Shown here piece after piece: positions 9,067 to 57,155 of a stretch of 64,000 bases of DNA (position 1 is the first letter of the stretch; each line of letters opens with the position of its first letter). The translations under genes and the position numbers were made by a program. Where the stretch lies: positions 6,014 through 70,013 of the forward strand of contig JAAXJR010000009.1 of the NCBI GenBank assembly GCA_012269745.1. Reading direction: 5' to 3'. The notes beneath the pieces are model-generated. The model was given only the letters and a program-made list of their open reading frames with translations, made no database searches and was not told where the DNA came from. Origin of the DNA: Flavobacteriales bacterium (GTDB lineage: Bacteria > Bacteroidota > Bacteroidia > Flavobacteriales > Schleiferiaceae).

Positions 9067-10590
9067 TCATCCAATTAAAACGTGAGTACCTGCCTTTATT
9101 GTTGACATTTTTTCAACCAAAAACTCCTTAGGATCCTCTCCTAAAATTCCGATCAAATCTGCATAAGAGGCTTTACGCTCCCAGAAAGTGCCTTCCGGAT
9201 ACATGGCATTAAAAATACGATCTAAGCCTGCGATGAATTCTTGATTTCGACGCTTCTGAACTCTATACCGCTGTTCAACTGTTTTGGTGGCCAATTTTTC
9301 CATCTTCACTTTTGTAGCCTGTGTATGGGCTAGCATCTCAGGGTAAGCTTCCAGCATTTTTTCTTCCCAAAGTCTTATGGCATCGAAAATTGGTGAAGCA
9401 TAATCTTGAGTTTCCTTGTTCAACAATCTTAGGTAATTCAATCGCTCTTTGATCAATGGCTCTTTGTTCGCTCCTACAAGTTGTGACCAACTGAATTCTA
9501 GTCCTTTTCTAATTCGCTCCGTTTTTTCAGAACACGCCAACACAGAATCACGCAAGTACAATCTTGGCATTGGAATATTTAACGCTTCAAACACGGTACC
9601 CAGCTGTAACCAATAAGCAAGTTCACCACCTCCACCTACATAAGCAAGGTTAGGTAATAGCAACTCTTGATAAACCGGTCGTAAAAGTGCATTTGGACTA
9701 ATAACCTCTGAAGGAAGGTTCTTAAAGGCTCGTATGCGCTCCCTCGCATTCCTACCAAGCTCGAAGAGGTTAATGTCTCTAGGATATACTTGTGCCTTGA
9801 GGCCTAAATCTTCTAACTGTGTAGTTCTTTTTTTTATCAGAACGCTTAATTCTCCGCGAAGCTCTTTTTCCCAGATTTCACTTGCCAAAGACTTGAGCAC
9901 AGCATCATCTCCATCTAATACAAGGACGCCGAATTCTGATGCCCATTCTCTGACAATCTTACGAGTGCCCTCGGATAAATTTTCAGTGGTTTTGTATGCA
10001 TCAAGCCTTTTCTGTAAAAATTCACGCTGCACCTCTGTTAACGTTGCGCTTTCTACAAAGGCCTCTAGTTGCTCGCAAAGACTGTCTGTTTTTATCCGTC
10101 CAACTGCGCCGCCAGTTTCTGAAAAATCCCATGTGAACTTTTGTCCTCCTACACCAAAAGAGGCTATTTCCTCGAAGTCATGATCTTCAGTAGCCATCCA
10201 AAAGACCGGCACTACAGATTTCCCTAAATAACGAGTAGACTCTTTAGCTAGGGCAATTGCAGACAGAATTTTAATTTCAAAAAAGGCCGTACCACCAGAG
10301 ACCATTAGTTGATGCCCTGTTGTGATGGTTAAAGCACCGGCTTCAAATTCCTTAAGGTTATCTTCTTCCGCAGTTGAAAGATGGGTATTCTGATTTCGGA
10401 AAACACTGGCAACCTTCTGTCTTATCTCTTGCGAATAGCACTGGTCTTTAGTAACTGATATTGACTTTAAATCTTCAAGCGACCGTATTGCTTCTCCAAA
10501 TTGCCTTGGAAATCCATCGGCACTCAATAAGTGCTTCATTATCTTTGAAGGCAAGCCAGAATCGGTATGTGGAATAAAATCGTAAGTCAT
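9067..10590 (-). CDS. bshC: Bacillithiol synthase BshC
   Basis: BshC adds cysteine to glucosaminyl-malate, the final step in making bacillithiol, the low-molecular-weight thiol of Firmicutes, Deinococcus and Bacteroidota. The 507-aa length fits the family. Recognisable blocks are TITTGHQLMVSGG (near residue 92), FWMATEDHDFEEI, YVGGGGELAYW and a long C-terminal coiled coil around residues 400-455. It is upstream of guaA on the same strand. Its N-terminal coding end overlaps the leader of the divergent lipoprotein gene. BshA and BshB are not in the window. Confidence 0.93.
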   Translation of the reverse strand: MTYDFIPHTDSGLPSKIMKHLLSADGFPRQFGEAIRSLEDLKSISVTKDQCYSQEIRQKVASVFRNQNTHLSTAEEDNLKEFEAGALTITTGHQLMVSGGTAFFEIKILSAIALAKESTRYLGKSVVPVFWMATEDHDFEEIASFGVGGQKFTWDFSETGGAVGRIKTDSLCEQLEAFVESATLTEVQREFLQKRLDAYKTTENLSEGTRKIVREWASEFGVLVLDGDDAVLKSLASEIWEKELRGELSVLIKKRTTQLEDLGLKAQVYPRDINLFELGRNARERIRAFKNLPSEVISPNALLRPVYQELLLPNLAYVGGGGELAYWLQLGTVFEALNIPMPRLYLRDSVLACSEKTERIRKGLEFSWSQLVGANKEPLIKERLNYLRLLNKETQDYASPIFDAIRLWEEKMLEAYPEMLAHTQATKVKMEKLATKTVEQRYRVQKRRNQEFIAGLDRIFNAMYPEGTFWERKASYADLIGILGEDPKEFLVEKMSTIKAGTHVLIG

Positions 10591-12135: not shown

Positions 12136-12163
12136 GGAGCCAAGAAATTGGCTCCTTTTTTTT
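12136..12163 (+). terminator. Orphan intrinsic terminator upstream of the photolyase operon
   Basis: GGAGCCAA (12136-12143), GAAA loop, TTGGCTCC (12148-12155) and then eight T residues. It works only on the + strand (no T-run on the other side), yet no + strand gene lies between 11193 and it. It stands 38 nt before the photolyase ATG, as a leader attenuator or the 3' end of a small RNA would. Confidence 0.8.
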
Positions 12164-12201
12164 GCCCTAAACTTTCGGCGAGAATTGCTTGTTTAAAAGG
12201 C

Positions 12202-13731
12202 ATGTCTAAGATTATTCGTCTCGTTCTAGGAGATCAACTCAACCCCCGTCATTCTTGGTTTTCCGAGGTAAATCCTGATATAACCTATGCGTTCATTGAA
12301 TGTAAAGGAGAAGGCAGCTACGCCCCCCATCATGTCCAAAAGGTAGTGGGTATATTTCAGTCCATGCGCACCTTTGCTTCCCGACTTGAGAGCCAAGGCC
12401 ATAAGGTGTATTACCACAAAATTCTCGACTCAAGAGAAATTGAACTTATAGATATTCTGCATTCCGCATCAGTGAAAAATAATACTCATGAGTTACAATT
12501 TATGATGCCAGACGAGTGGAGAGTGAAAGAAAACCTAGAAAGTCTCAAATCGAGAGGTTTTAAGATATCATTCGTCAGTAGTGAACATTTCATTTCCACC
12601 CCTGAAGAATTTAGCAACACTTTCAAAGGCAAAAAGAGTTACCTCATGGAAAGCTTTTACAGGAAGCTGAGAAAGCGCACCGGAATCTTAATGGAAGGTG
12701 GCAACCCAACAGGAGGTAAGTGGAACTATGATGCTCAAAACCGTAAAAAACTGCCCAAAAACCATGTGCTGCCTGCAGCGCATGTTCCAAGCACCAATGT
12801 AGAAGACGTTTACCAAGAAGTACTCGAAGCTAATTTGCCTGTAATAGGATCTTTAAGGGACCCTAAACACTTTTACTGGCCGACTACACCCGAGCAAGCC
12901 ATGGATATATTCGAGAACTGGCTGGAACATTGTTTCGAATTTTTCGGGGATTTTCAAGACGCAATGACCGTCTCTAATTGGGCCCTTTACCATAGTAGAA
13001 TTTCTTTTGCATTAAATACCAAGATGATAGATCCTTTGACCATTTGCCAAATGGCCGAGGAATACTACCATAACAATGAAAATATACCCCTAAATGCTGC
13101 TGAGGGTTTCATTCGCCAAATCTTGGGATGGAGAGAATTTATGAGAGGTGTGTATTGGGAACGTATGCCCGAATTCGCGGATACAAATTACTTCAACCAT
13201 CAAGCAAAGCTCCCACAATGGTTTTGGAACGGAAAAACAAAAATGAAGTGCCTCTCCCACTCCATCAAACAAAGTTTAGATCATGCCTATGCCCATCACA
13301 TACAACGTTTAATGGTAACAGGTAATTTTGCTCTATTAGCAGGTATACATCCGGACGAAGTCGATCTGTGGTACCTGGGAATATATATCGATGCATTTGA
13401 ATGGGTTGAGATCACCAATACCCGCGGTATGAGCCAATATGCGGATGGTGGATGGATTGCAACCAAACCCTATGTCGCCTCCGCCAACTACATGAAAAAA
13501 ATGGGCGATTATTGTCAAAATTGTTCCTACAACGAGAAAACAAAAACAGAATCTGATAGTTGTCCATTTAACTCGCTGTACTGGAACTTCTTCGAGCGTC
13601 ATCGCGACCTACTTGGTAATAACTTCAGACTTGGTATGGTCTACAGAACCTTTGACAAAATGGATGTACATACAAAAGAGGCCATACGACAGCGTGCAAC
13701 CTATGTATTAGAACATCTAGACACTTTATAA
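12202..13731 (+). CDS. phrB: Fe-S bacterial cryptochrome/photolyase (PhrB-type, probable (6-4) photolyase)
   Basis: Started at ATG 12202 the 509-aa protein matches the FeS-BCP class: DLG-like N-terminal domain (IIRLVLGDQLN), FAD-binding C-terminal domain, and the four [4Fe-4S] cysteines at 350, 438, 441 and 454 (CLSHS; CQNC; SCPFN), the same numbers as in Agrobacterium PhrB. The coincidence supports this start over the in-frame ATG at 12148, which lies inside the terminator hairpin. PhrB enzymes repair (6-4) photoproducts using blue light, FAD and a lumazine antenna. The stop overlaps the next start (TAATG), coupling it to the DASH cryptochrome. Confidence 0.93.
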   Translation: MSKIIRLVLGDQLNPRHSWFSEVNPDITYAFIECKGEGSYAPHHVQKVVGIFQSMRTFASRLESQGHKVYYHKILDSREIELIDILHSASVKNNTHELQFMMPDEWRVKENLESLKSRGFKISFVSSEHFISTPEEFSNTFKGKKSYLMESFYRKLRKRTGILMEGGNPTGGKWNYDAQNRKKLPKNHVLPAAHVPSTNVEDVYQEVLEANLPVIGSLRDPKHFYWPTTPEQAMDIFENWLEHCFEFFGDFQDAMTVSNWALYHSRISFALNTKMIDPLTICQMAEEYYHNNENIPLNAAEGFIRQILGWREFMRGVYWERMPEFADTNYFNHQAKLPQWFWNGKTKMKCLSHSIKQSLDHAYAHHIQRLMVTGNFALLAGIHPDEVDLWYLGIYIDAFEWVEITNTRGMSQYADGGWIATKPYVASANYMKKMGDYCQNCSYNEKTKTESDSCPFNSLYWNFFERHRDLLGNNFRLGMVYRTFDKMDVHTKEAIRQRATYVLEHLDTL

Positions 13732-15011
13732 TGAGTACCTGTATCCTTTGGTTTAGAAACAATTTACGATTAGGCGACAACATGCCTGTAGCGGAGGCCT
13801 ATGCCCAGTTCGACACTGTCATTCCGGTATTTATTCTATCCGATTCACAACATTCAAGTAAGTGGGCTGAACCTGGAATGGGCCCCCACCGAGCTCGCTT
13901 TTTAGTAGAAAGCCTGGAAGATTTGAAGCAGGGGTTAAGGAATGCATCCAGTGATCTGCTTATTATTCCTTCTGAAGACCCCGTAAAAACCTTACTTGAG
14001 ATAGCTAATCAAACCAATTCTTGCGCAATTTACGGTCCCAAAGAATTCGCATTTAACGAGGTTAGACAAGAATCTGAATTAGTCTCAAAGGCAAAGCAGG
14101 AGCGTCTCGAAGTCAAATTCTACACCGAACGTACCCTTTACTTACAAAGTGATCTGCCATTCGGACTCGATGATTTGCCTGAAGTCTTCTCTCGTTTCAG
14201 AGGAAAAGTTGAAAAACGAAGCAGGGTACAACCACCTATCGAAGAACCAGAAATCACATCATTTGACCCCCTTGACTTTAATTTGGAAGGTTCTGAAATC
14301 CCAGTGCTTTCAGATTCAAAAGATTCTCGTTCTGCAGTGCCTTTCAAAGGTGGAACTACGGCAGCCTGGAAAGAGGTGGACTACTACCTATGGGAAAGCG
14401 AGGCCGTTCTCGAATACAAACTCACACGAAACGGGATGGTCGGCCGAAAATACAGCTCAAAGTTATCTGCCTTTTTGTCCTTAGGCTGCCTAAGTGCTCG
14501 ACAGATTTACGACGAACTGAAAAGATTTGAAGAAGAAGTTGAATCCAATGAAAGTACTTACTGGCTATTTTTTGAATTATTGTGGCGCGAATACTTCCAA
14601 TGGATAGCATTAAAGCATGGTAAAGACTTGTTTACTGCCCACGGTTTACAACCCGAAAAGCCATTGAAACAAGGTTTTAATGCGAGGGCCTTTGAAAAGT
14701 GGACCTCCGGAAACACGGGAGATCGTTTTGTCGATGCCAATATGAAGGAACTTGTAGCTACAGGTTTTATGAGTAATCGTGGACGTCAAAATGTGGCTTC
14801 CTATCTCGTTCACGATATGGGAATAGATTGGCGCGCCGGTGCAGCATTTTTTGAGAAACATTTGATTGATTACGACCCATCATCCAATTATGGAAATTGG
14901 TTATATAATGCAGGAAGAGGCAACGACCCGCGTCCTTTCAGGAAATTCAACACCAAAATGCAAGCGGAGCGATACGATTCCAAAGGAGAGTTTGTAGAAA
15001 CTTGGACGTAA
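13731..15011 (+). CDS. DASH-family cryptochrome
   Basis: The 426-aa protein has the photolyase N-terminal antenna domain (ILWFRNNLRLGDN at the start, a typical class I/DASH opening) and the FAD domain with DASH signatures: DANMKELVATGFMSNRGRQ and DYDPSSNYGNWLYNAGRGNDPR near the C-terminus. DASH cryptochromes bind MTHF and FAD and repair cyclobutane dimers in single-stranded DNA, and may also signal. It is translationally coupled to the Fe-S photolyase upstream, and the PLP decarboxylase follows after 15 nt. Confidence 0.94.
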   Translation: MSTCILWFRNNLRLGDNMPVAEAYAQFDTVIPVFILSDSQHSSKWAEPGMGPHRARFLVESLEDLKQGLRNASSDLLIIPSEDPVKTLLEIANQTNSCAIYGPKEFAFNEVRQESELVSKAKQERLEVKFYTERTLYLQSDLPFGLDDLPEVFSRFRGKVEKRSRVQPPIEEPEITSFDPLDFNLEGSEIPVLSDSKDSRSAVPFKGGTTAAWKEVDYYLWESEAVLEYKLTRNGMVGRKYSSKLSAFLSLGCLSARQIYDELKRFEEEVESNESTYWLFFELLWREYFQWIALKHGKDLFTAHGLQPEKPLKQGFNARAFEKWTSGNTGDRFVDANMKELVATGFMSNRGRQNVASYLVHDMGIDWRAGAAFFEKHLIDYDPSSNYGNWLYNAGRGNDPRPFRKFNTKMQAERYDSKGEFVETWT

Positions 15012-45653: not shown

Positions 45654-47168
45654 ATGAAAAGGAGGTTTTCACAGCTTATAACTTTTATAAATTCCAGGTG
45701 GAGTAATATTGCTCTACTCAGCTTTGCACTGGTTGTTTCCTACTTTTCTTTCCGAGGGATCACAAGTACATTTCGCGGAAGTACCTACCAAGATATTTTC
45801 CAGCTTCAGGAACTGTTCCAAGAATATACTGCTTCCATCGAAGATTATTCTAGGCAAGTAGTTAATTCTGAAAACGCGGAGAGGATTATGCCTCGTTTAC
45901 TCCAGAGAGACAACATTTTTCAAATTCGATTGATTGATAGTGCGGGTATAGAACAATCCAAATTTGATGAATATGGTTTCAACAATAAAAATGATGTTAC
46001 CACACGTCCTTATTGGGAGAATGTTTCCAACCTAGATACAGACCGTTGGTTTGTTACGCAGGCAGAACCGAACTATGAAAATGACCCAGAAACTGGAGAG
46101 CAAATTATTACAAATAAAACGATCAGATATTTCTACCACTTTCCAAAAAGCATTCAAACCAATGACTCTCAATACACACATTATTTTGCAGTAAACCTTG
46201 ATTACACCAAGCTCGAGGAAGAGTTAGATTCCATTTTCACTAACCAAAAACTCTTTCTTTTAGGGTCTGAAGACCTTCAATCTCCGAAGGAATATTTAAG
46301 CGGAACTAGCTGGATCACGGAAATACCACTAAAAATAACTTTTGACAATAACCGCTGGACTATATTAGGCACAAGATTTACCTACGATCTCAGCTGGTTC
46401 TATTTCTTGTCGGTTTGCTTGGTTATTGCTCTTTATTTACTGAAAGAAAGCTTTGTTCAATGGCAGGCAAAACGTCTATTAACCGAGAGAATGGAAGGTC
46501 AAGATAAATTTGTCCAATCTTGGGTCAATATGGCTTCTCATCACTTCAGACATCCATTGGCAAACATTAGTGCTCGATTAGACATTCTCAAATACAAGAA
46601 AGAAGCTCCAACGAAGAAAGAGATAGAGAACATTCAAAGCAGCTTTAACGACTTTTTAGAGGTTTTTGAATATCTCAAAAAGCTCCAGATTCTAAATGAT
46701 CTTGATAATCGCGAATTCAAATGGCATTCCTTGAAAGCTATCAATGAATTAATCTTAAATAGAAAAGCAACTAGTTTTGAAACAATAGGTATTCCTATCG
46801 AATTCGAAGACATCGAAGTTTATGTTGATCCGTTGCCGTTTGAGTGGGCCATCAGTGAAATCATAGATAACTCTATTACACACAGTAAGGGCAATAAGGT
46901 CGCCTTATCATTGAATCATACAGATAAATATCTGTTTATCCGCATTGAAGATGATGGTGAGGGAATACCTTCTAAAGTGCTTGAGACTATTAACCAGCGT
47001 TCTTTGAAACAAGATAAAGGCTTTGAAACGGGCTCTTTTGGCCTAGGTCTACTTCAATTCAACAAAATCATGGACCAGCATAGTTTTAAAGTTCGTGCAG
47101 AAAATCTCGGAATTGGTGGAAGTCGGATTGAAATAGGAATTCCAAACACCAGCATTTTACGTAAGTAA
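45654..47168 (+). CDS. Membrane-bound sensor histidine kinase
   Basis: The 504-aa protein has two membrane helices (about 17-35 and 248-263) that enclose an extracytoplasmic sensor region of about 210 residues (CHASE/dCache-like; not a named family to me). The cytoplasmic part has a dimerisation/phospho-acceptor segment ASHHFRHPLANI with His296 and a HATPase domain: N-box EIIDNSITHS, G1 EDDGEGIP and GSFGLGLLQF. It should autophosphorylate on a signal outside the membrane. No response regulator is adjacent (orphan); it lies 122 nt after the SRP RNA on the same strand. Confidence 0.9.
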   Translation: MKRRFSQLITFINSRWSNIALLSFALVVSYFSFRGITSTFRGSTYQDIFQLQELFQEYTASIEDYSRQVVNSENAERIMPRLLQRDNIFQIRLIDSAGIEQSKFDEYGFNNKNDVTTRPYWENVSNLDTDRWFVTQAEPNYENDPETGEQIITNKTIRYFYHFPKSIQTNDSQYTHYFAVNLDYTKLEEELDSIFTNQKLFLLGSEDLQSPKEYLSGTSWITEIPLKITFDNNRWTILGTRFTYDLSWFYFLSVCLVIALYLLKESFVQWQAKRLLTERMEGQDKFVQSWVNMASHHFRHPLANISARLDILKYKKEAPTKKEIENIQSSFNDFLEVFEYLKKLQILNDLDNREFKWHSLKAINELILNRKATSFETIGIPIEFEDIEVYVDPLPFEWAISEIIDNSITHSKGNKVALSLNHTDKYLFIRIEDDGEGIPSKVLETINQRSLKQDKGFETGSFGLGLLQFNKIMDQHSFKVRAENLGIGGSRIEIGIPNTSILRK

Positions 47169-47983: not shown

Positions 47984-48604
47984 ATGATTTACACCTTATA
48001 CCCAGATAGCATCAATCAACAGATTATCAAAGAATGTGCGCAAAAGCTCATCGCGGGAGAGGTAGCTATCATTCCTACCGACAGTGTTTATGCGGTAGTA
48101 GGGGATTTCATGAATCCAAAGTCATTGAAAAAGCTTGCAGAGATTAAGAAGGAATCCATCAAAGAGGCAGAATTTTCATTCCTTTTCACCAATCTGAGCC
48201 AAGTTTCTGAGTACACCCAAAGTGTAGGTGGATCTACTTTTAAATTTATGAAGCAATGTTTCCCAGGGCCGTACACCTTGGTTTTAGAGTCGAATATTAC
48301 ACTTGCACGCAAGCTTGGTCAGAAGAGAAAAACTATTGGAGTACGATTACCCGATAATGAGATAGTACGCGCCTTGGCAGAAGAGATTGGTCGTCCTTTG
48401 GCTTCAGCCTCATTGCATCATGATGATGAGTTATTGCAATATCCTACCGACCCTGATGAAATTGTGGCAAATTATGCACACAAGGTAGATTTCGTTATTA
48501 ACGGAGGTTGGGGCGACAATATACCCTCAACAGTCATCGATTTGACCACTCCTACTCCTACCCTTATCCGAGCGGGGAAAGGAGATGTGGAAATTCTTGA
48601 ATAA
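47984..48604 (+). CDS. L-threonylcarbamoyladenylate synthase (Sua5/YrdC family)
   Basis: The 206-aa protein makes threonylcarbamoyl-AMP from threonine, bicarbonate and ATP for the universal t6A37 tRNA modification. Family signs: GEVAIIPTDSVYAVVGD, FPGPYTLVLE, TIGVRLPDNEI, and RPLASASLHHDDELL. It lacks the C-terminal Sua5 extension, so it is the YrdC/YwlC-type short form. Convergent with menE and overlapping it by 41 bp, the largest convergent overlap here. Confidence 0.93.
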   Translation: MIYTLYPDSINQQIIKECAQKLIAGEVAIIPTDSVYAVVGDFMNPKSLKKLAEIKKESIKEAEFSFLFTNLSQVSEYTQSVGGSTFKFMKQCFPGPYTLVLESNITLARKLGQKRKTIGVRLPDNEIVRALAEEIGRPLASASLHHDDELLQYPTDPDEIVANYAHKVDFVINGGWGDNIPSTVIDLTTPTPTLIRAGKGDVEILE

Positions 48605-49607
48605 GCCTACGCAACTCTTTTCTATCGAGCTTACCACTGGATAGAACGGGCAATTTCTCTACTGAAAAACACCATTTAGGACGTTGTGTACGCGGTAGTG
48701 AAGAAACTGCATTGGAGAGCTCCAACTCTTTAAATTGCCCCGTATAAACCAGCACCAACTGCTCGCCTAGTTGCTCATTTTCTCTTGAAGAAATGTAGAT
48801 ATCTTTTAACCCCAGATTGTGGAGGTCACTCTCAATCTTGCTAGGGTGCATTTTGATTCCGCCTGAATTAATTACATAATCTAATCTCCCCAATAGCTTA
48901 AAGGAAGTAGCGCTTGTTAATTCAGCAGCATCATTGGTTTTTAACTGATTTATTCCGAGGTGTGATGCAGTAATTAATAAAGCCTCATTAGCTAAGGCGA
49001 AATACACGCCTTCCACCGATTTAAATTCTTCTTCGCCGTAAGACCTCAGAGCAACATGTGAGGCTGTCTCCGTCATCCCATAACCTTCGTAAACTTTCAG
49101 GCCACCAATGTCAAGATGTTTTTGAGAGGGCGCTCCCCCAAGAAGAATTTGTCCGGAAAAATCATTGAGGACGTTATTATCTAGCATAGACAAGAACTGA
49201 GCCGGTGTACAAGGCAAGAAATCCACGGATGGTACTTCCTTGATTGAAAGCTTTGGTTCTACTAAATGTAAGGTCAAGCCTCCCACCAAAGCTCGAATGA
49301 GCATCATTGCTCCTCCTGTATACTGAGCGGGAAGCATTAAGAGGGCCGAACTACCTATATTTAAATCGAAAAAATCTAGTGTTCTTCGCGCCGAGGCTAT
49401 CAAACACTTCTTATTGTGAAAAATTGTTTTCGGAGCACCTGTACTCCCGCTGGTGTGGAAGGCCATCTCATCACTATCTGAAGCAAATTCAACTAATTGA
49501 TTTTGAACTATTTCAACCCAATTAGGAACCTTCTTCAATGAAATAAATTCTTCTACAGAATATTCCTTGAGTTGGAATACAATTCTAGTGTGCTCGAATG
49601 TGGTCAA
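48564..49607 (-). CDS. menE: 2-succinylbenzoate--CoA ligase
   Basis: MenE adenylates o-succinylbenzoate and ligates CoA. The 347-aa ANL-fold protein has the AMP-binding P-loop TSGSTGAPK (52-60), YEGYGMTETASHV, YVINSGGIKMHP and the C-terminal GKLDRKEL, and is short like other Bacteroidota MenE. A stop (TAA) lies directly before TTG at 49607 in frame, and the first in-frame ATG is 48 codons in, so translation starts at TTG 49607 or a later unusual codon. It is separated from the other men genes by the TonB receptor gene. Confidence 0.88.
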   Translation of the reverse strand: MTTFEHTRIVFQLKEYSVEEFISLKKVPNWVEIVQNQLVEFASDSDEMAFHTSGSTGAPKTIFHNKKCLIASARRTLDFFDLNIGSSALLMLPAQYTGGAMMLIRALVGGLTLHLVEPKLSIKEVPSVDFLPCTPAQFLSMLDNNVLNDFSGQILLGGAPSQKHLDIGGLKVYEGYGMTETASHVALRSYGEEEFKSVEGVYFALANEALLITASHLGINQLKTNDAAELTSATSFKLLGRLDYVINSGGIKMHPSKIESDLHNLGLKDIYISSRENEQLGEQLVLVYTGQFKELELSNAVSSLPRTQRPKWCFSVEKLPVLSSGKLDRKELRRLIQEFPHLLSPLG

Positions 49608-49637
49608 TTAGGTACAGTTTTTGTTTCTTGTGGGCCG

Positions 49638-52073
49638 ATGCTCAAAATTAGAACAATCTTTCTATTCCTTTTGATTTCAAGTGCAATGACTTTGTCCGCA
49701 CATGTAGTCTCACATGGACCTCATTGGATTACCGTAGTAAGTAAAAACAGTGACCGACCTATTGAGGGAGTGAGTATTACTGTGAATGATAAATATATAG
49801 CCACCACTGGTCCTTTGGGACGTGTTATGGTGGGAGCTTTATCAGATGAAGATGTGGTTTCTTTCTACCATACTTCCTACGCACCAAGACATTATAACTT
49901 CAAGCAATTAGCTCGTGCACATTTTAAAGTAGGACTTTATGAGAGTGTGCTGAACATACAGGAAGTCGTCATCAAAGCGAATCGCATGGAGGCAGACTTC
50001 AAACAGAATCCGCAAGAGGTTAGGACAATTAGTGCCAAACGAATGAAGAGTCAATTCATAGGAAACAGTGCCGATGCGCTAAGTTTGGATCCAAATGTGT
50101 TCATTCAAAAAAGTCAAAGCGGTGGTGGCTCTCCCATGATAAGGGGAATGAGTACCTCGCGTGTTCTTATTTTGATTGACGGAATGCGATTGAACAACGC
50201 AATCTTCCGTGCTGGAAATGTACACAATGTTATAAGCCTTGATCCTTTGAGCATTGCGGACATGGAAATCAGCCTTGGTCCTGGCTCCGTATTACACGGA
50301 TCGGATGCCTTAGGCGGCACCATGCACATCAACACTTTTGACGCGCATTACGGTGATAGTACAGAGGTCTTGCAAAGTTTGGTCTATGATTTCAGTACCA
50401 ACAACGCACAATTGACAAGAAGACCCAACTTCCGAATCAACTATGGTGGATTGAATTGGGCAGGGATGACAAATATCACCTATAGCCAATACAGCGATGT
50501 ACGAATGGGAAGAAACATTTTCCCTTGGACTCCGGAAGATGCATTACGCAATTACCCTGCAATGTGCGAGCCAATCACGTTTGCCACTTTAGATACCATG
50601 CGCAAGCCTATGAATACGCTTGTTCAACCAAAAACGGCTTACGATCAGCGCAACCTCACTCAGAAACTCAAGTTTCGTATTACTCCGACAGGTGAGCTCA
50701 AATTAGGATTCTACCTAAGCATGCTATCGGATGTGAACCGATACGACAGATTCATTGAGACAAGAAACGGTGCACCACGTTACGCATACTGGAACTATGG
50801 TCCGCAGATGTGGTCCATGGCAACAATTGCCTATGAAGACCGCAAAAGCACTGCATTTTATGATAGAATAAAGTGGGCCGGTGCGCTGCAGGGTTATCAA
50901 GAAAGTAGAGATGTAAGACGCTATAGAAATCCCGTTGGTCGTCTGCAGACTGAGCGTGTTCGTATGGCGCAAGGTAATGTTGATGCCACTAAGAAGATTA
51001 ATCAAAAACTGAACCTCAGCTATGGAGCTGATTGGAATTTGAACTTGATCTCAAGTAATGCCATTCATTATGATGCTCTAGACCGTGATAGTACATGGAA
51101 TGCACAATCGAGGTATGCAGATGGATCAAGATGGTCGAGTTCCGCAGCTTTTGTAAGTGCTCTGTACAACATCAACCCTAACCTATCACTTTCGGCAGGA
51201 TCTCGTTTGAACCACATTCATATGTTCACCCCGATACGCTTCGACGGATACGAGAACGATGCAACTTGGAACTTCTTAGCTCCGAGTGGCTCTGTTGGCG
51301 CGAGCTATTCTAAAAAGAGTTTCAAGTATTTCTTTAATCTGAGTACCGGTTTCCGTGCGCCAAATGTGGATGATGCTTCTAAAGTTTTTGATTCGCAGCC
51401 TGGTGCCTTAATCGTTCCCAATACAGACTTAAAAGAAGAACGTCTGTATAGCGCCGAAATAGGTATGAAGCACCTTATCGGCGATAACGTAGTCCTAGAT
51501 GCTAGCTTTTATTACAGTTACTTGGATGATGCCATGATTCGCGCACCATACAGCTTCAATGGTCAAGACAGTATTATGTATGACGATGAGCTGTCTGAAG
51601 TATTGGCCATTCAAAATTTAGATTACGCCACCATTTGGGGTTACCAATTTGGCGTTCGCTCAGAATTGAGTAAGTCTTTGTTCTGGACCGTTCACTGGTC
51701 ACACCCTTTTGGAACTGACAGTGAAGGTCAACCTTTGAGACATGCCAGTCCCTTCAATGCCACATCGCAACTCGTATACCGCAAGAAAAAGTGGACCGCT
51801 ACTCTAACCGGGAGATACAATGGGGAAATGAGTCATGAAGACTTAAGCTTCAGTGAACGTAGTAAGACGCACATCTATGCCATTGATGAGAATGGTCTGC
51901 CTTATTCTCCAAGATGGTACACTTTGAGTCTAATGACCAACTACGAATTCAACAAGAATATTTTGCTTAGAGCGGGAATAGAGAACATTATGGATGCACA
52001 GTACCGGCCGTATTCTTCGGGAATTGTAGCTCCGGGTAGAGCCCTTTTTATCGGTCTTAGAGGATCGATTTAA
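49638..52073 (+). CDS. TonB-dependent outer membrane receptor
   Basis: From ATG 49638 the 811-aa protein has a signal peptide (MLKIRTIFLFLLISSAMTLSA), a carboxypeptidase-regulatory-like domain (about 25-105), a plug domain with MIRGMSTSRVLILIDGMRLNNAIF, and a C-terminal beta-barrel whose last strand ends RALFIGLRGSI. The plug segment resembles heme/hemoglobin-receptor-type plugs of Bacteroidota, but the ligand (heme, siderophore or other) is not determinable. Faces divergently from menE with a 30-bp gap and convergently overlaps menC by 17 bp. Confidence 0.92.
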   Translation: MLKIRTIFLFLLISSAMTLSAHVVSHGPHWITVVSKNSDRPIEGVSITVNDKYIATTGPLGRVMVGALSDEDVVSFYHTSYAPRHYNFKQLARAHFKVGLYESVLNIQEVVIKANRMEADFKQNPQEVRTISAKRMKSQFIGNSADALSLDPNVFIQKSQSGGGSPMIRGMSTSRVLILIDGMRLNNAIFRAGNVHNVISLDPLSIADMEISLGPGSVLHGSDALGGTMHINTFDAHYGDSTEVLQSLVYDFSTNNAQLTRRPNFRINYGGLNWAGMTNITYSQYSDVRMGRNIFPWTPEDALRNYPAMCEPITFATLDTMRKPMNTLVQPKTAYDQRNLTQKLKFRITPTGELKLGFYLSMLSDVNRYDRFIETRNGAPRYAYWNYGPQMWSMATIAYEDRKSTAFYDRIKWAGALQGYQESRDVRRYRNPVGRLQTERVRMAQGNVDATKKINQKLNLSYGADWNLNLISSNAIHYDALDRDSTWNAQSRYADGSRWSSSAAFVSALYNINPNLSLSAGSRLNHIHMFTPIRFDGYENDATWNFLAPSGSVGASYSKKSFKYFFNLSTGFRAPNVDDASKVFDSQPGALIVPNTDLKEERLYSAEIGMKHLIGDNVVLDASFYYSYLDDAMIRAPYSFNGQDSIMYDDELSEVLAIQNLDYATIWGYQFGVRSELSKSLFWTVHWSHPFGTDSEGQPLRHASPFNATSQLVYRKKKWTATLTGRYNGEMSHEDLSFSERSKTHIYAIDENGLPYSPRWYTLSLMTNYEFNKNILLRAGIENIMDAQYRPYSSGIVAPGRALFIGLRGSI

Positions 52074-53106
52074 GGGAAGATAAATCCCAATCGGTAAGAA
52101 TATCCTTCTTCACCTTTAGTAGTCCCCCTTCCACATTGTAAGGCCCTTCGATATTATTCGTGAACAAACTACCCGTACCTAATCCTTGCGGAATTGAATT
52201 TGATTTAGTGAATGTCCATTGAGCAATTGCATTTAGCCCAACGTTACTTTCTAGCGCAGAGGTTGCCCACCATTGAATATCGCGCTCTGCAGCAAGCTCA
52301 ATCCATTCATCAGCACCTTTCCAGCCACCAATGAATGAAGGCTTCAGTATGATATATTGTGGTCTAATGGTCTCTAATAATTCTTTCTTCTGTTTATGCT
52401 CTATCATTCCAATGAGACTCTCATCGAGCGCCACAGAGATATGCATCTGCTCTACCGCCTTGGCCAGTTCCTCGTTTCTTCCTGCCTTTATGGGCTGCTC
52501 CATTGAATGGACAGAAATATCACGTAAATACTTGCTGATTTCGACGGCTTCTTCCAGTTCAAAGGCACCGTTTGCGTCTACACGAAGCTCTAATTGATCT
52601 TCAGAAAACTCCTTTCTTAATGCGCTTAAAATGGACTTTTCTTCTTCCCAGCCTATAGCACCTACTTTCATTTTTAAGGTGGTGAAACCTTCATCCAAAC
52701 GTTTAGCTACTTGATCGCGCATAAAAGCGAGGTCTCCCATCCAGATCAGCCCATTGATTGGCTGATGCGATTGGCGCTGGGTAAAAGCAGAAGGAAAATG
52801 CTCGAAACCATTCTCTAAATGACTGAACGCTTGCTCTAAGGCAAACTGAATACTTGGGAACTGTTGATTCGCTTGATACAATTCATCTAAGCCAAGATGA
52901 ATATTCTCACACGTCCATGCTATCTGTGTTTCCAATTCTGGAACATCATCAAACGAGAGTCCGCGGAGCACACCTACCTCGCCTAAACCCACTTTTTCCA
53001 TGTCATGGATGGCAATGAAGAAGCTCTCTTTAGTCGTTAAAACACCTCTAGAGGTACCACCAGGAATCTTGAAATTTAGGACGTAATTAGTGTATTTAGC
53101 TTTCAT
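52057..53106 (-). CDS. menC: o-Succinylbenzoate synthase
   Basis: MenC dehydrates SHCHC to o-succinylbenzoate. From ATG 53106 (sharing a base with menA stop) the 349-aa protein shows the enolase-superfamily set: FTTLKMKVGA (Lys pair), RVDANGAF and SMEQP (metal Asp/Glu), ALDESL, and YIILKPSFIGGW (second Lys). The in-frame ATG at 53139 lies inside menA and is less likely. The 3' end overlaps the TonB receptor gene. Confidence 0.93.
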   Translation of the reverse strand: MKAKYTNYVLNFKIPGGTSRGVLTTKESFFIAIHDMEKVGLGEVGVLRGLSFDDVPELETQIAWTCENIHLGLDELYQANQQFPSIQFALEQAFSHLENGFEHFPSAFTQRQSHQPINGLIWMGDLAFMRDQVAKRLDEGFTTLKMKVGAIGWEEEKSILSALRKEFSEDQLELRVDANGAFELEEAVEISKYLRDISVHSMEQPIKAGRNEELAKAVEQMHISVALDESLIGMIEHKQKKELLETIRPQYIILKPSFIGGWKGADEWIELAAERDIQWWATSALESNVGLNAIAQWTFTKSNSIPQGLGTGSLFTNNIEGPYNVEGGLLKVKKDILTDWDLSSLKSIL

Positions 53107-54026
53107 TAGAGAAACAACGAGATTGATGTAAGTACACAATACAACAAGGTCATTAGCGCTAAAGGTTTAAGCAAGGCGTCATATTCTTCTGGAGTGCTTG
53201 CCTGACTGAACTTTTTGAATTGGCCCCGCAAGGCAAATTGAAAAACGAGGTGTCCTATGATTGGGTAATATTCCTTAGAAAGTACACTGGCCAGTATTGA
53301 GAAAATGAGACTAACGAGGATCGAAACGATGAGTAAGGTTTTGAAATACCCCCTACCCCATTTTTCACCAAATCGAACGACTAGAGTTCTTTTGCCGTGT
53401 TGAGCATCTCCATCTCTATCTCTGAGATTATTCAAAGTTAGAACGGAGGCACTCATCGCACCCGCTACAAGAGAAGGAAGGGCATCCAAAGCATTTAACG
53501 AACCAGTTTGAAGCGCTGAAGAACCCATAACACCTACAAAGCCAAAGAAAATAAAGACAAATAAATCGCCGCCGCCCCAATAGGCATAGGGATTACCGCC
53601 AAGCGTGTATGAACGAGCGGCCCAAATAGCTGCAAGGTTCAAAACTGAAAAAATGTAGAAGTATAGTGTTCCGAAAAAAGCAAAGTATACGAGTGTGCCA
53701 CCTGATATTAAAGCGAGTATAGTAAACGCGTTCGTGGCCGCTCGCATTTGAGAAATCGAGATCAATCCAGAAGCTACAGCGCGTTGTTCGCCTTTTTTAT
53801 TCTCGTCGGTCCCTTTGATGCCGTCTCCAAGATCATTGGCATAGTTGGACAGGACCTGGTACGCAAAACTCGTAAGTAAGGCTAGGACAAAAAGAGAGGC
53901 AGAGAATTGACCCTGGTGAAAGTAGCCTAATCCACTACCTAGAATGATAACTGCAAAAGCTAGAGGTAGCGTTCTTAACCTCGCTGCTTTTACCCAATGC
54001 TTAAATGCAACTGTTTCTTTAGTCAT
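53106..54026 (-). CDS. menA: 1,4-Dihydroxy-2-naphthoate polyprenyltransferase
   Basis: MenA prenylates DHNA in the inner membrane. The 306-aa protein has eight to nine helices and the two UbiA-family Asp motifs: NYANDLGDGIKGTDE (about 62-76, NDxxDxxxD) and NLRDRDGDAQHGKRT (about 194-208). MenA stop and menC start overlap (TAATG), and its start overlaps the H-NOX gene by 8 bp, so all three are translated in tandem. Confidence 0.95.
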   Translation of the reverse strand: MTKETVAFKHWVKAARLRTLPLAFAVIILGSGLGYFHQGQFSASLFVLALLTSFAYQVLSNYANDLGDGIKGTDENKKGEQRAVASGLISISQMRAATNAFTILALISGGTLVYFAFFGTLYFYIFSVLNLAAIWAARSYTLGGNPYAYWGGGDLFVFIFFGFVGVMGSSALQTGSLNALDALPSLVAGAMSASVLTLNNLRDRDGDAQHGKRTLVVRFGEKWGRGYFKTLLIVSILVSLIFSILASVLSKEYYPIIGHLVFQFALRGQFKKFSQASTPEEYDALLKPLALMTLLYCVLTSISLFL

Positions 54027-54570
54027 TTATAATGGTCACCCGGATCTCCACCTCGGTACCATTATTATCTGGGGTTAAATCTTCTTTTTCGATGGACACC
54101 TTGTTTCCAAAATGTTTCGCCGACCCTTTGATCATTCCGATACCGAAGTCTGACATTGCTCGCTCACTTTCGTAGATCATTTTCAGATTATTGTCGTCAA
54201 TTCTCTTGTAAGTAAAGGATGGCAATGAAGCGTCCGGGAATTGTTGGTTCACATGTACATGTACGTGATCCTCAAGCGATTCCAAGAAACCGAACAAATC
54301 GACTCCTTCACCTAAGTACTTCGCGTACGATACCGCTAAGATATCGAACAAGTAATAACCGTAGTCTTCTAAAATTTTCGGCACTGAATCTCCTGTATGA
54401 GCGTGGGTTTGAGCCACTACCCCATAAAGAGATTTGAATGGATAAGTGCCCATGACTTCGTAAGAATCTCTATCGCCTGAACCAGCGTCGCGAAGAATAA
54501 AATTCTTGAGCTCCTCTCCGTGAGACTTGGTCAAGAAGTCGATATAAGTTTGAAAAATCAGTCCTTTCAT
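54019..54570 (-). CDS. H-NOX (heme nitric oxide/oxygen-binding) protein
   Basis: The 183-aa protein is a complete, stand-alone H-NOX: start MKGLIFQTYIDFL, heme-iron ligand His104 (with His102 and His106 beside it), the propionate-binding motif Y133-x-S135-x-R137 exactly 29 residues after His104 as in the Thermoanaerobacter protein, and GIGMIKGSAKHFG. The distal Tyr that stabilises O2 in some H-NOX is replaced by Phe142, suggesting NO rather than O2 selectivity. It leads menA and menC (8-bp overlap with menA). H-NOX usually signals to a kinase, cyclase or phosphodiesterase; none is adjacent. Two 19-bp repeats lie directly upstream. Confidence 0.93.
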   Translation of the reverse strand: MKGLIFQTYIDFLTKSHGEELKNFILRDAGSGDRDSYEVMGTYPFKSLYGVVAQTHAHTGDSVPKILEDYGYYLFDILAVSYAKYLGEGVDLFGFLESLEDHVHVHVNQQFPDASLPSFTYKRIDDNNLKMIYESERAMSDFGIGMIKGSAKHFGNKVSIEKEDLTPDNNGTEVEIRVTIIND

Positions 54571-54589
54571 TTTGGTCTATTTAGTTTCC
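54571..54589 (-). repeat. 19-bp operator-like element, copy A, directly before H-NOX
   Basis: The + strand reads TTTGGTCTATTTAGTTTCC, identical at 16 of 19 positions to copy B at 54617-54635. Its core CTA-TT-TAG is a dyad flanked by GG and CC. It abuts the H-NOX ATG. It also forms the left arm of a hairpin with ATAGACCA (54603-54610) plus TTTC/GAAA (54585-54588 with 54598-54601), which would be in the H-NOX mRNA leader. Confidence 0.55.
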
Positions 54590-54616
54590 GTAACAAAGAA
54601 ACATAGACCATGGGCC

Positions 54617-54667: not shown

Positions 54668-56206
54668 TCAATTCAACTTCTTCAGCGCTGCAAAGGCCTC
54701 GCTGTTCTTACCTTCCACGGTGAGCACCTCTACTAAAGTGCTTTTAGCATTTTTCAGTTCACTCAGATTTTGCACAACCTCACTACGACAATCGTAGGCT
54801 AGTGCAAGAGTGGCAATGTCCACCTCTTGATAATTGGCGTAAACCGCCTGTGCTGCCTCAGAAGTCTGTGATGTACCTGGAAGCCAATTAAAAATTTCTC
54901 CAACACAATTATTGATCACAAATACTCGAAGGTTATCTAAATCCTTAAGATGCATCAATCCATTGCTGTCGTAGAGAAAGCTCTGATCTCCTATGATAAG
55001 CACATGATTCTTCTCTGGACTTACTCGAGCCGCTCCAATAGCCGTGCTTAAAGTACCGTCAATACCACTAACACCACGGTTACAATAGACTGGGCCTTCA
55101 TGCAAGAAATAGCTCAAATAGCGAGGAATAGAACTGTTCCCTAAATGAAGCACGTCATCTGCAGATAAAGATTGGATGATAGCTCTGATCGCGAGCGCAT
55201 CCGACCATGGAAGATCTGGGATTTTGAGTGGCTTTTCTTCTATTTTCAGAAAACTGCACGTCGACCAGCTTTTCAAATCTTGAAGTGAAACTCTCCACGA
55301 GATAAAACTTAGTGCGTCACTTACGTTCCACGCTTGGTAAGGATCATGATGAATGTGAACCTTCAAATTCAATTTTCTCACGTGAAACTTAGGAAATTTG
55401 CTCATCCATTGACCGCCAAAGGAAAGCAACCCGTCAAATTCATGGTGAACCAATTCATCAATATTCACACAATTTTCTTCCCCTAACAAACCACTCAATG
55501 GATCCACAAACCACGTGGCGTTGGAGGAAGAAATCAAACCTGAGTATTTTACAAATGCTGCATCCTCAGGGCGTAATTGACCACAAACTATGGCCACCTT
55601 TTGGCAGGTATTTAACGGAGATAAATCTACAGGCTTAGCCTTTGGAACCGTGTACTCCTGAAATTCTAAAGATTCTATACTTTCCACCTGACCATATAAT
55701 GGCTCATCGAAATGGATGTTGATATGTACAGGCTCTCTCAACACCGTCAAACAATGATGGAGTTGCTCAAAGACTTGTTTAAACTCGTCTGCCGTGGTGC
55801 TTTCATCGAAAGACGCAGAAAACCCAATATGGGCATCAAAAAAATCCGTTTGCTCACAGGTTTGCCCCTCTCCTTTACCTATTCTATCTACCGGGCGATC
55901 AGCTGTAATAAGCACAATCGGGATTTTGCTATAATAGGCTTCTAGAACAGCTGGGTAATAATTCGCCAAAGCGCTACCTGAGGTGCAGCACACCCCAACA
56001 ATGTTACCGGTCATCAAAGAGGCCCCAATGGCTTGAAAAGCCGCACTGCGCTCGTCCAATACGGTATTGTGCTCGATACCTGGATGCGCCGTTCCTGCAA
56101 TAATTAATGGTGTATTTCTAGATCCTGGAGAAAAAATAAGGCGTTGCATACCCACTTGTGCGAGTGCATCTAGGGTCCAATGTGCTATAGCCTTATCCGA
56201 GGTCAT
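54668..56206 (-). CDS. menD: 2-Succinyl-5-enolpyruvyl-6-hydroxy-3-cyclohexene-1-carboxylate synthase
   Basis: MenD joins isochorismate and 2-oxoglutarate with thiamine diphosphate. The 512-aa protein has the ThDP-activating Glu in VLDERSAAF, SPGSRNTPL at the start, an HINIHFDEPLY stretch and the Mg/diphosphate segment (IIGDQSFLYDSNGL). It overlaps menF by 14 bp at its start. The gap to the next gene (97 bp) holds the paired elements before H-NOX, so menD may end its transcription unit. Confidence 0.95.
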   Translation of the reverse strand: MTSDKAIAHWTLDALAQVGMQRLIFSPGSRNTPLIIAGTAHPGIEHNTVLDERSAAFQAIGASLMTGNIVGVCCTSGSALANYYPAVLEAYYSKIPIVLITADRPVDRIGKGEGQTCEQTDFFDAHIGFSASFDESTTADEFKQVFEQLHHCLTVLREPVHINIHFDEPLYGQVESIESLEFQEYTVPKAKPVDLSPLNTCQKVAIVCGQLRPEDAAFVKYSGLISSSNATWFVDPLSGLLGEENCVNIDELVHHEFDGLLSFGGQWMSKFPKFHVRKLNLKVHIHHDPYQAWNVSDALSFISWRVSLQDLKSWSTCSFLKIEEKPLKIPDLPWSDALAIRAIIQSLSADDVLHLGNSSIPRYLSYFLHEGPVYCNRGVSGIDGTLSTAIGAARVSPEKNHVLIIGDQSFLYDSNGLMHLKDLDNLRVFVINNCVGEIFNWLPGTSQTSEAAQAVYANYQEVDIATLALAYDCRSEVVQNLSELKNAKSTLVEVLTVEGKNSEAFAALKKLN

Positions 56207-57155
56207 CTATTTGAATTAATTCCTTTAATGCGGAAATTTTGTGTTGAGTTTCCATCCACTCGTCCAAAGGTACACTGTCTTTGGTTATGCCACCACCAGC
56301 ATAAAATTGGACCCCGTTTGAAAACCATTGCATAGTTCTCAGCAAAACTGTTGCATGCACATTATCCTCAAACAATCCCAAGTAACCTGCATAAAGTGAT
56401 CGGTCATACCCCTCCAATTGCTCAATTAATTCTTGCGCTTTTACGGAAGGTGAGCCACAAATGGCAGGCGTTGGATGCAACTCTTCCGCTGCTGCCTTCG
56501 GGTCCAATTCTAGATTGTCAGTATTGACCCATGTTAGCAGATGCTCTACAGGTCCAGCACTGAATGTGCTTTGTTTATCCCTAGTGATCTTGCCACCAAA
56601 TTCTTTTAGACTCTTATGGACCTCCTTTGTGACAAATTTTTGCTCTTCAAGCTCCTTTTGACCCCAATGAGTAGTGCCTTTAAGTCGAGTTCCTGCCAAA
56701 GACATACTTCTATACCCCTGAGCAGAGCTCTCAAGTAGAACTTCAGGAGAAGCGCCCATCCAAGAACCGAACTGCTCATGCTTCAAAGCGAAAACTGTGC
56801 ACGAAGGGTAATTCTCTAGTAGCTTTTCAAATGTTAATTTTGGATTTGCGCCAGGACGATCCCAGAAGAGCCTACGGCTTAAAACGACCTTTTGAACGGT
56901 GTGTTTTTGAATCTCTGAAATAGCACCTGTCACCATTTCCTGGTATTCTGAAGCACTTTTATTTTCAGAAGCGTCGTTAACACTGGCTGAAAATGAATCC
57001 CAAAAAGTGGCATCAATTTCTACGTCATTTGATTGAAAATAGCTCACATCTCCTTTGAAACCACGTAGAACCAAATTTGCAGCATCAACCGAGGTTTCCT
57101 CGCAGTGAAGACTCCGGAGTGGTTGGTTGGGAATGCGAAGTAGTACCTCGAGCAT
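56193..57155 (-). CDS. menF: Isochorismate synthase
   Basis: MenF isomerises chorismate to isochorismate. The 320-aa protein has the C-terminal chorismate-binding domain: QKVVLSRRLFWDR, GASPEVLLE, MSLAGTRLKG, EELHPTPAICGSP and YAGYLGLFE. It lacks most of the N-terminal half of E. coli MenF (431 aa), as is usual in Bacteroidota. Start overlaps the thioesterase stop (TAATG) and its end overlaps menD by 14 bp. Confidence 0.93.
   Translation of the reverse strand: MLEVLLRIPNQPLRSLHCEETSVDAANLVLRGFKGDVSYFQSNDVEIDATFWDSFSASVNDASENKSASEYQEMVTGAISEIQKHTVQKVVLSRRLFWDRPGANPKLTFEKLLENYPSCTVFALKHEQFGSWMGASPEVLLESSAQGYRSMSLAGTRLKGTTHWGQKELEEQKFVTKEVHKSLKEFGGKITRDKQSTFSAGPVEHLLTWVNTDNLELDPKAAAEELHPTPAICGSPSVKAQELIEQLEGYDRSLYAGYLGLFEDNVHATVLLRTMQWFSNGVQFYAGGGITKDSVPLDEWMETQHKISALKELIQIDDLG

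Follow-up and report, generated by a model that had tools for sequence, protein, structure and literature searches.

An H-NOX gene overlapping menA in Schleiferiaceae: a predicted nitric oxide sensor that may have moved from a kinase partnership to the menaquinone unit

The window analysed here, a whole stretch of 64,000 nucleotides from a Flavobacteriales genome of the family Schleiferiaceae, carries a gene for an H-NOX heme protein embedded in a block of menaquinone-synthesis (men) genes. The reading developed here, to which we give a little less than an even chance, is that a nitric oxide (NO) sensor left its kinase partnership, joined the menaquinone unit and may tune quinone output. It draws on a single H-NOX lineage, monophyletic with support of 99/96, that adjoins men genes in four species, which belong to three genera of one family; on an overlap of 8 bp between H-NOX and menA in the window, in its sister species (G076) and in a species of another genus (G025), where H-NOX heads an H-NOX-menA-menC unit; on the helix-bearing kinases that adjoin other close relatives, the helix being absent from the men loci; and on intact heme-pocket residues together with a dN/dS of 0.038, which is below that of any men gene tested. 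Weighing against it, gene overlap is known also between proteins without contact, no residue of MenA or MenC tracks the H-NOX beyond controls, menA in the third genus (G024) lies on another contig than H-NOX, 22 other species of the window genus do without H-NOX, searches of the window genome yielded no gene for the production or reduction of NO, and the men-linked set comprises only four genomes, all metagenome-assembled.

Organisation of the men block

The features of the locus are as follows.

54019..54570, minus strand: H-NOX (HNOB) heme protein, 183 aa from its ATG, complete; identified by its PF07700 match, matches to H-NOX structures in the PDB, heme-pocket residues and dN/dS against G076
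54019..54026, minus strand: overlap of the H-NOX stop and the menA start, exactly 8 bp, ATGACTAA; from ORF coordinates and junction sequence
53106..54026, minus strand: menA, prenyltransferase of menaquinone synthesis, 306 aa; named from a reading of sequence and context, with neighbour order kept in the genus and a menA tree
52057..53106, minus strand: menC, probable start ATG at 53106, TAATG overlap with menA; kept after menA in relatives
54668..56206, minus strand: menD, homologous to a G024 protein with TPP-enzyme domains
56193..57155, minus strand: menF-type isochorismate synthase, named by reading
48564..49607, minus strand: menE, named by reading
54574..54609, minus strand: inverted repeat (hairpin) in the spacer between menD and H-NOX, z about -4 in the window and in G076

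The genes follow one another on the same strand in the order thioesterase, menF, menD, a spacer of 97 bp, H-NOX, menA and menC, and menE lies past menC, beyond an oppositely oriented gene for a TonB-dependent receptor. This receptor gene (49572-52073) adjoins menC, and its place is kept across most of the genus. An earlier note on this DNA had described the H-NOX as heading menA-menC with its stop overlapping the menA start by 8 bp; the overlap proved exact, and the gene order and both junctions bear the description out, menA and menC also being coupled, through TAATG. The overlapping reading frames would provide matched and local production of H-NOX and MenA, which would suit a complex with MenA. 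The further statement that no signalling enzyme is adjacent also holds, the neighbours being menD and menA, with no kinase, cyclase or phosphodiesterase among them. The nearest kinase within the window (45654-47168) is about 7 kb from H-NOX and was rejected as its partner, being absent from that place in the sister species.

The inverted repeat of the spacer, GGTCTAT...ATAGACC, stops 3 nt ahead of the H-NOX start codon, and the spacer folds about 4 SD better than its shuffles both in the window and in G076 (L017, about 9417-9452). It may represent an operator or an RNA element, between which two such close sequences do not distinguish. Elsewhere in the window, a pair of lycopene-cyclase-like and carotenoid-hydroxylase-like genes (1536-2715) and two tandem photolyase/cryptochrome-like genes (12148-15011) were recognised by reading only.

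Heme pocket, predicted ligand and sources of NO

The protein, the single H-NOX of the window genome (2.27 Mb in 87 contigs), matches the HNOB profile PF07700 with an E-value of 1.1e-35 over profile positions 1-162 of 163 in the Pfam profile search, and its family score of 123.4 bits passes the curated cut-off of 25.5. It possesses the proximal His104, the heme-distorting Pro117 and Tyr133-x-Ser135-x-Arg137, with the family spacing of 29 between His104 and Tyr133, in agreement with the earlier description of a complete H-NOX. His104, Pro117, Ser135 and Arg137 are identical in all 63 aligned H-NOX, and Tyr133 in 62 of them. The nearest solved structures, 6bde and 6bdd (E 8e-27), carry an aldolase as the molecule name given by their depositors and are followed by other H-NOX structures; we take them to be the H-NOX of Kordia algicida. 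The two proteins are alike as stand-alone-domain H-NOX of Bacteroidota, the Kordia protein being the closest in sequence among those solved, and differ at hinge position 71 (Gly in the window protein, Ala in 6bdd) and in the placement of the window protein in a separate, men-linked clade.

Residue 142, which corresponds to the distal Tyr site of the O2-binding H-NOX subgroup, is Phe in the window protein, as the earlier note had observed. The special weight given there to this residue for NO selectivity does not stand, since Phe142 is ordinary among the relatives: the position is occupied by Leu in 29, Phe in 26 and Val in four of the 59 comparison H-NOX. There is no cysteine among the 183 residues, and with it the conserved Cys zinc site of the zinc/thiol redox H-NOX is missing; a zinc/thiol switch, as described for the Vibrio cholerae H-NOX (PMC8738867), is therefore excluded for the window protein. 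The protein is predicted to be a heme-based and probably NO-selective sensor. Purifying selection on the gene, as judged from the comparison of the window with G076, marks it as a working gene; the men genes tested range in dN/dS from 0.053 to 0.20, and thrS and lpd lie lower than H-NOX.

Searches of the window genome for genes of NO chemistry did not find a copper nitrite reductase (NirK) or an NO reductase, the heme-copper family being represented there only by aa3-type oxidase genes, and the hybrid-cluster protein (Hcp) was found neither in this genome nor in the whole family. The link with denitrification put forward earlier is thus unsupported for the window organism, for which NO would come from outside. 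G025, where NirK and a cNOR cluster (NorBCQ) accompany the men-linked H-NOX, is the one genome for which it is retained. An association of H-NOX with a second terminal oxidase was likewise rejected: the extra aa3 gene of the window genome (L194) shares 81% identity with the main copy and resides on a 3.1-kb contig (G000:C72), which is probably assembly contamination. A cbb3 fragment was found in G076 and not in the window genome.

Men-linked relatives and the partners of other H-NOX

H-NOX was identified in 15 of the 88 genomes of the family and in two of the 25 genomes of the window genus, namely the window genome and G076. The H-NOX of G076 is 97% identical to that of the window and occupies the same men block, with the same overlap. 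In G025 the H-NOX is 41% identical, the gene preceding the unit is on the other strand, and the overlap reads ATGTCTAA, so that a second genus has an overlap of equal length and equal form (ATGNCTAA). In G024 the H-NOX is 43% identical and is found in the order menD-menB-H-NOX, with menA-menC on a separate contig. The four proteins constitute one clade in 200 of 200 bootstrap trees in the analysis of 64 H-NOX, and a quick tree of 78 H-NOX gives this clade a support of 96; the very high profile score of the men clade is partly circular, its members having gone into the profile itself, and the argument rests on the trees. A scan of named genomes with two narrow peptide patterns retrieved the three men-linked relatives (JAAZVU, Flavobacteriales MAG KhW_metabat.3; JAUHWL, Bacteroidia MAG 2_bin.22; JAOARK, Schleiferiaceae MAG McBI.9), one distant H-NOX and nothing else. 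The concern raised earlier, that H-NOX might adjoin menA only in this strain, thus does not apply to a lineage that recurs in three genera, with the overlap in two of them.

In 22 other species of the genus menA comes straight after menD, or in two of them after an intervening menB, and the junction is without H-NOX; therefore, the H-NOX is an optional addition to the block. Since the menA tree nests the window gene inside its genus, menA is considered to be vertically inherited, and a recent transfer of the whole men block was rejected. Two histories would account for this distribution, an ancestral H-NOX lost many times or an entry at the menD/menA junction in the common ancestor of the window species and G076. 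The overlap of equal length in G025 would speak rather for an H-NOX and a menA already paired in a common ancestor.

In the literature covered (PMC6759604, PMC8738867), H-NOX genes lie beside those for kinases, c-di-GMP enzymes or chemotaxis proteins, and the H-NOX systems described there act through such proteins. Scans of ten neighbours of the other H-NOX genes of the family identified nine as hybrid histidine kinases; the remaining one is the PAS portion of a protein truncated at the edge of its contig. The close relatives elsewhere adjoin a histidine kinase or, in one case, a SpoIIE phosphatase. The H-NOX loci read from 396 sampled genomes of the order, 395 of the class and 395 of the phylum had, apart from the men-linked set, no men gene in their 1.5-kb flanks. 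The partner proteins have in common, at the N terminus, a helix of roughly 55 residues (LxRRLEREKxARKxAExxLExKALELYxxNxxLxxLNxxLE), which is probably a docking piece for H-NOX. An ORF with this helix occurs at 59 of the 74 non-redundant other H-NOX loci (E < 1e-3) and extends to the SpoIIE phosphatase partner in G552; the helix is missing from every ORF of the four men loci. The helix-bearing loci include L020, L022-L029 and L115, along with 50 other H-NOX loci in Bacteroidia. The 15 loci without the helix belong mostly to distant H-NOX types, and no signalling neighbour was seen at five of them. At L160, L161, L164, L165 and L166, which hold other H-NOX types of the phylum, no signalling gene was seen alongside, the neighbours in view encoding DUF3298/PdaC, DUF2911, DUF2064 and rhodanese proteins.

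Candidate targets and alternative readings

The window gene resembles the H-NOX/hybrid kinase systems of the HqsK/HahK/HnoK type (PMC6759604, PMC8738867) in its sensor family and heme-pocket residues, in being a one-gene H-NOX apart from its effector, and in that its genome keeps a kinase related to theirs in its core. It differs from them in lacking an adjoining kinase or c-di-GMP enzyme (as in G076, men genes being the neighbours in G025 and G024 too), in the absence of a helix-bearing partner, both among the ORFs of the men loci and in the related kinase, and in being built into a biosynthetic block with an overlap into menA. A survey of H-NOX neighbourhoods (PMC8738867, figure 6) records that some hnox genes have a gene for a chorismate-binding enzyme no more than five genes away; its network was seeded from the V. 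cholerae and P. denitrificans H-NOX, and it does not mention menaquinone or specify the chorismate enzyme. No link between H-NOX and menaquinone is apparent from the titles, abstracts and word counts of the literature covered, which does not include most subscription journals.

It is unlikely, in our estimate, that the system is a canonical one that has been split, in which the H-NOX would control a histidine kinase encoded elsewhere and the men site would only set its expression. The candidate is a 689-aa PAS-HisKA-HATPase-REC-Hpt kinase of the window genome (L198, G000:C5:5698-7764), unlinked to H-NOX, that scores 354 bits against a profile of H-NOX partner kinases, the next in the genome scoring 113; G076 reaches 356 bits, and G074 and G069, which have no H-NOX, reach at most 113. 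Most of its top matches beyond the genus are kinases adjoining H-NOX genes, and its core groups with the H-NOX kinase of G032 and with G024:C287 (support 95/96). On these grounds a kinase derived from an H-NOX partner kinase appears to survive in the window genome, so that the term 'stand-alone' used in the earlier note is correct for the locus and needs qualification for the genome. However, this kinase is devoid of the N-terminal helix, its ortholog (65%) persists in G066, where H-NOX was not detected, no counterpart was found at E 1e-40 in G025, which has the men-linked H-NOX, and the kinases most closely related to it are found with H-NOX of the other type. We think that it may be the former partner of a lost kinase-type H-NOX, G024 being a species that keeps both types; there, the start of G024:C287 roughly coincides with the point at which the H-NOX-adjacent kinase fragment on G024:C85 is cut short, and the two are probably one gene. 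The hybrid kinases L198, L204 and L223 all have a core that appears to descend from H-NOX partner kinases, and lack the helix of these kinases.

Action on some other diffusible target, or a role as NO sink or heme carrier with the men block providing steady housekeeping expression, is likewise considered unlikely. It would suit an optional gene that 22 relatives lack in the block, that is not beside menA in G024 and that shows no co-variation with MenA or MenC, and other H-NOX types of the phylum are also without a signalling neighbour in view; a junction and an overlap kept in two genera, with men linkage in a third, are nevertheless hardly those of neutral parking. That the protein senses O2, redox state or quinone rather than NO appears very unlikely. 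The missing genes of NO chemistry and the position among quinone genes would be in keeping with it, but stable O2 binding is unlikely for a protein that lacks the distal Tyr, given the role of Tyr140 (PMC7356049), and the want of cysteine excludes the redox switch of the V. cholerae type (PMC8738867).

Under the reading in which the H-NOX has joined the menaquinone unit, the protein would be made together with MenA through the overlapping frames, would bind NO and would then change menaquinone output, through contact with MenA or with a different men enzyme of this unit, when respiration is challenged by NO. Its most specific form, in which H-NOX is an NO-gated regulatory subunit of MenA or other men enzymes and NO sets the menaquinone pool directly, with no kinase or second messenger, is doubtful though quite conceivable. 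The proposal of the earlier note that NO controls menaquinone prenylation through MenA accords with a linkage recurring in three genera and an overlap in two; it gains nothing from co-variation, as the single MenA and MenC columns that track H-NOX (F36 and E253, respectively) fall within the control range and were rejected as co-varying residues.

The N-terminal helix marks the partner proteins of H-NOX in Bacteroidia and offers a means of recognising H-NOX that have gone from that partnership. If true, an H-NOX lineage with the quinone pathway as its partner would carry this sensor family into a biosynthetic pathway of the respiratory chain and would provide a simple link between NO and quinone supply.
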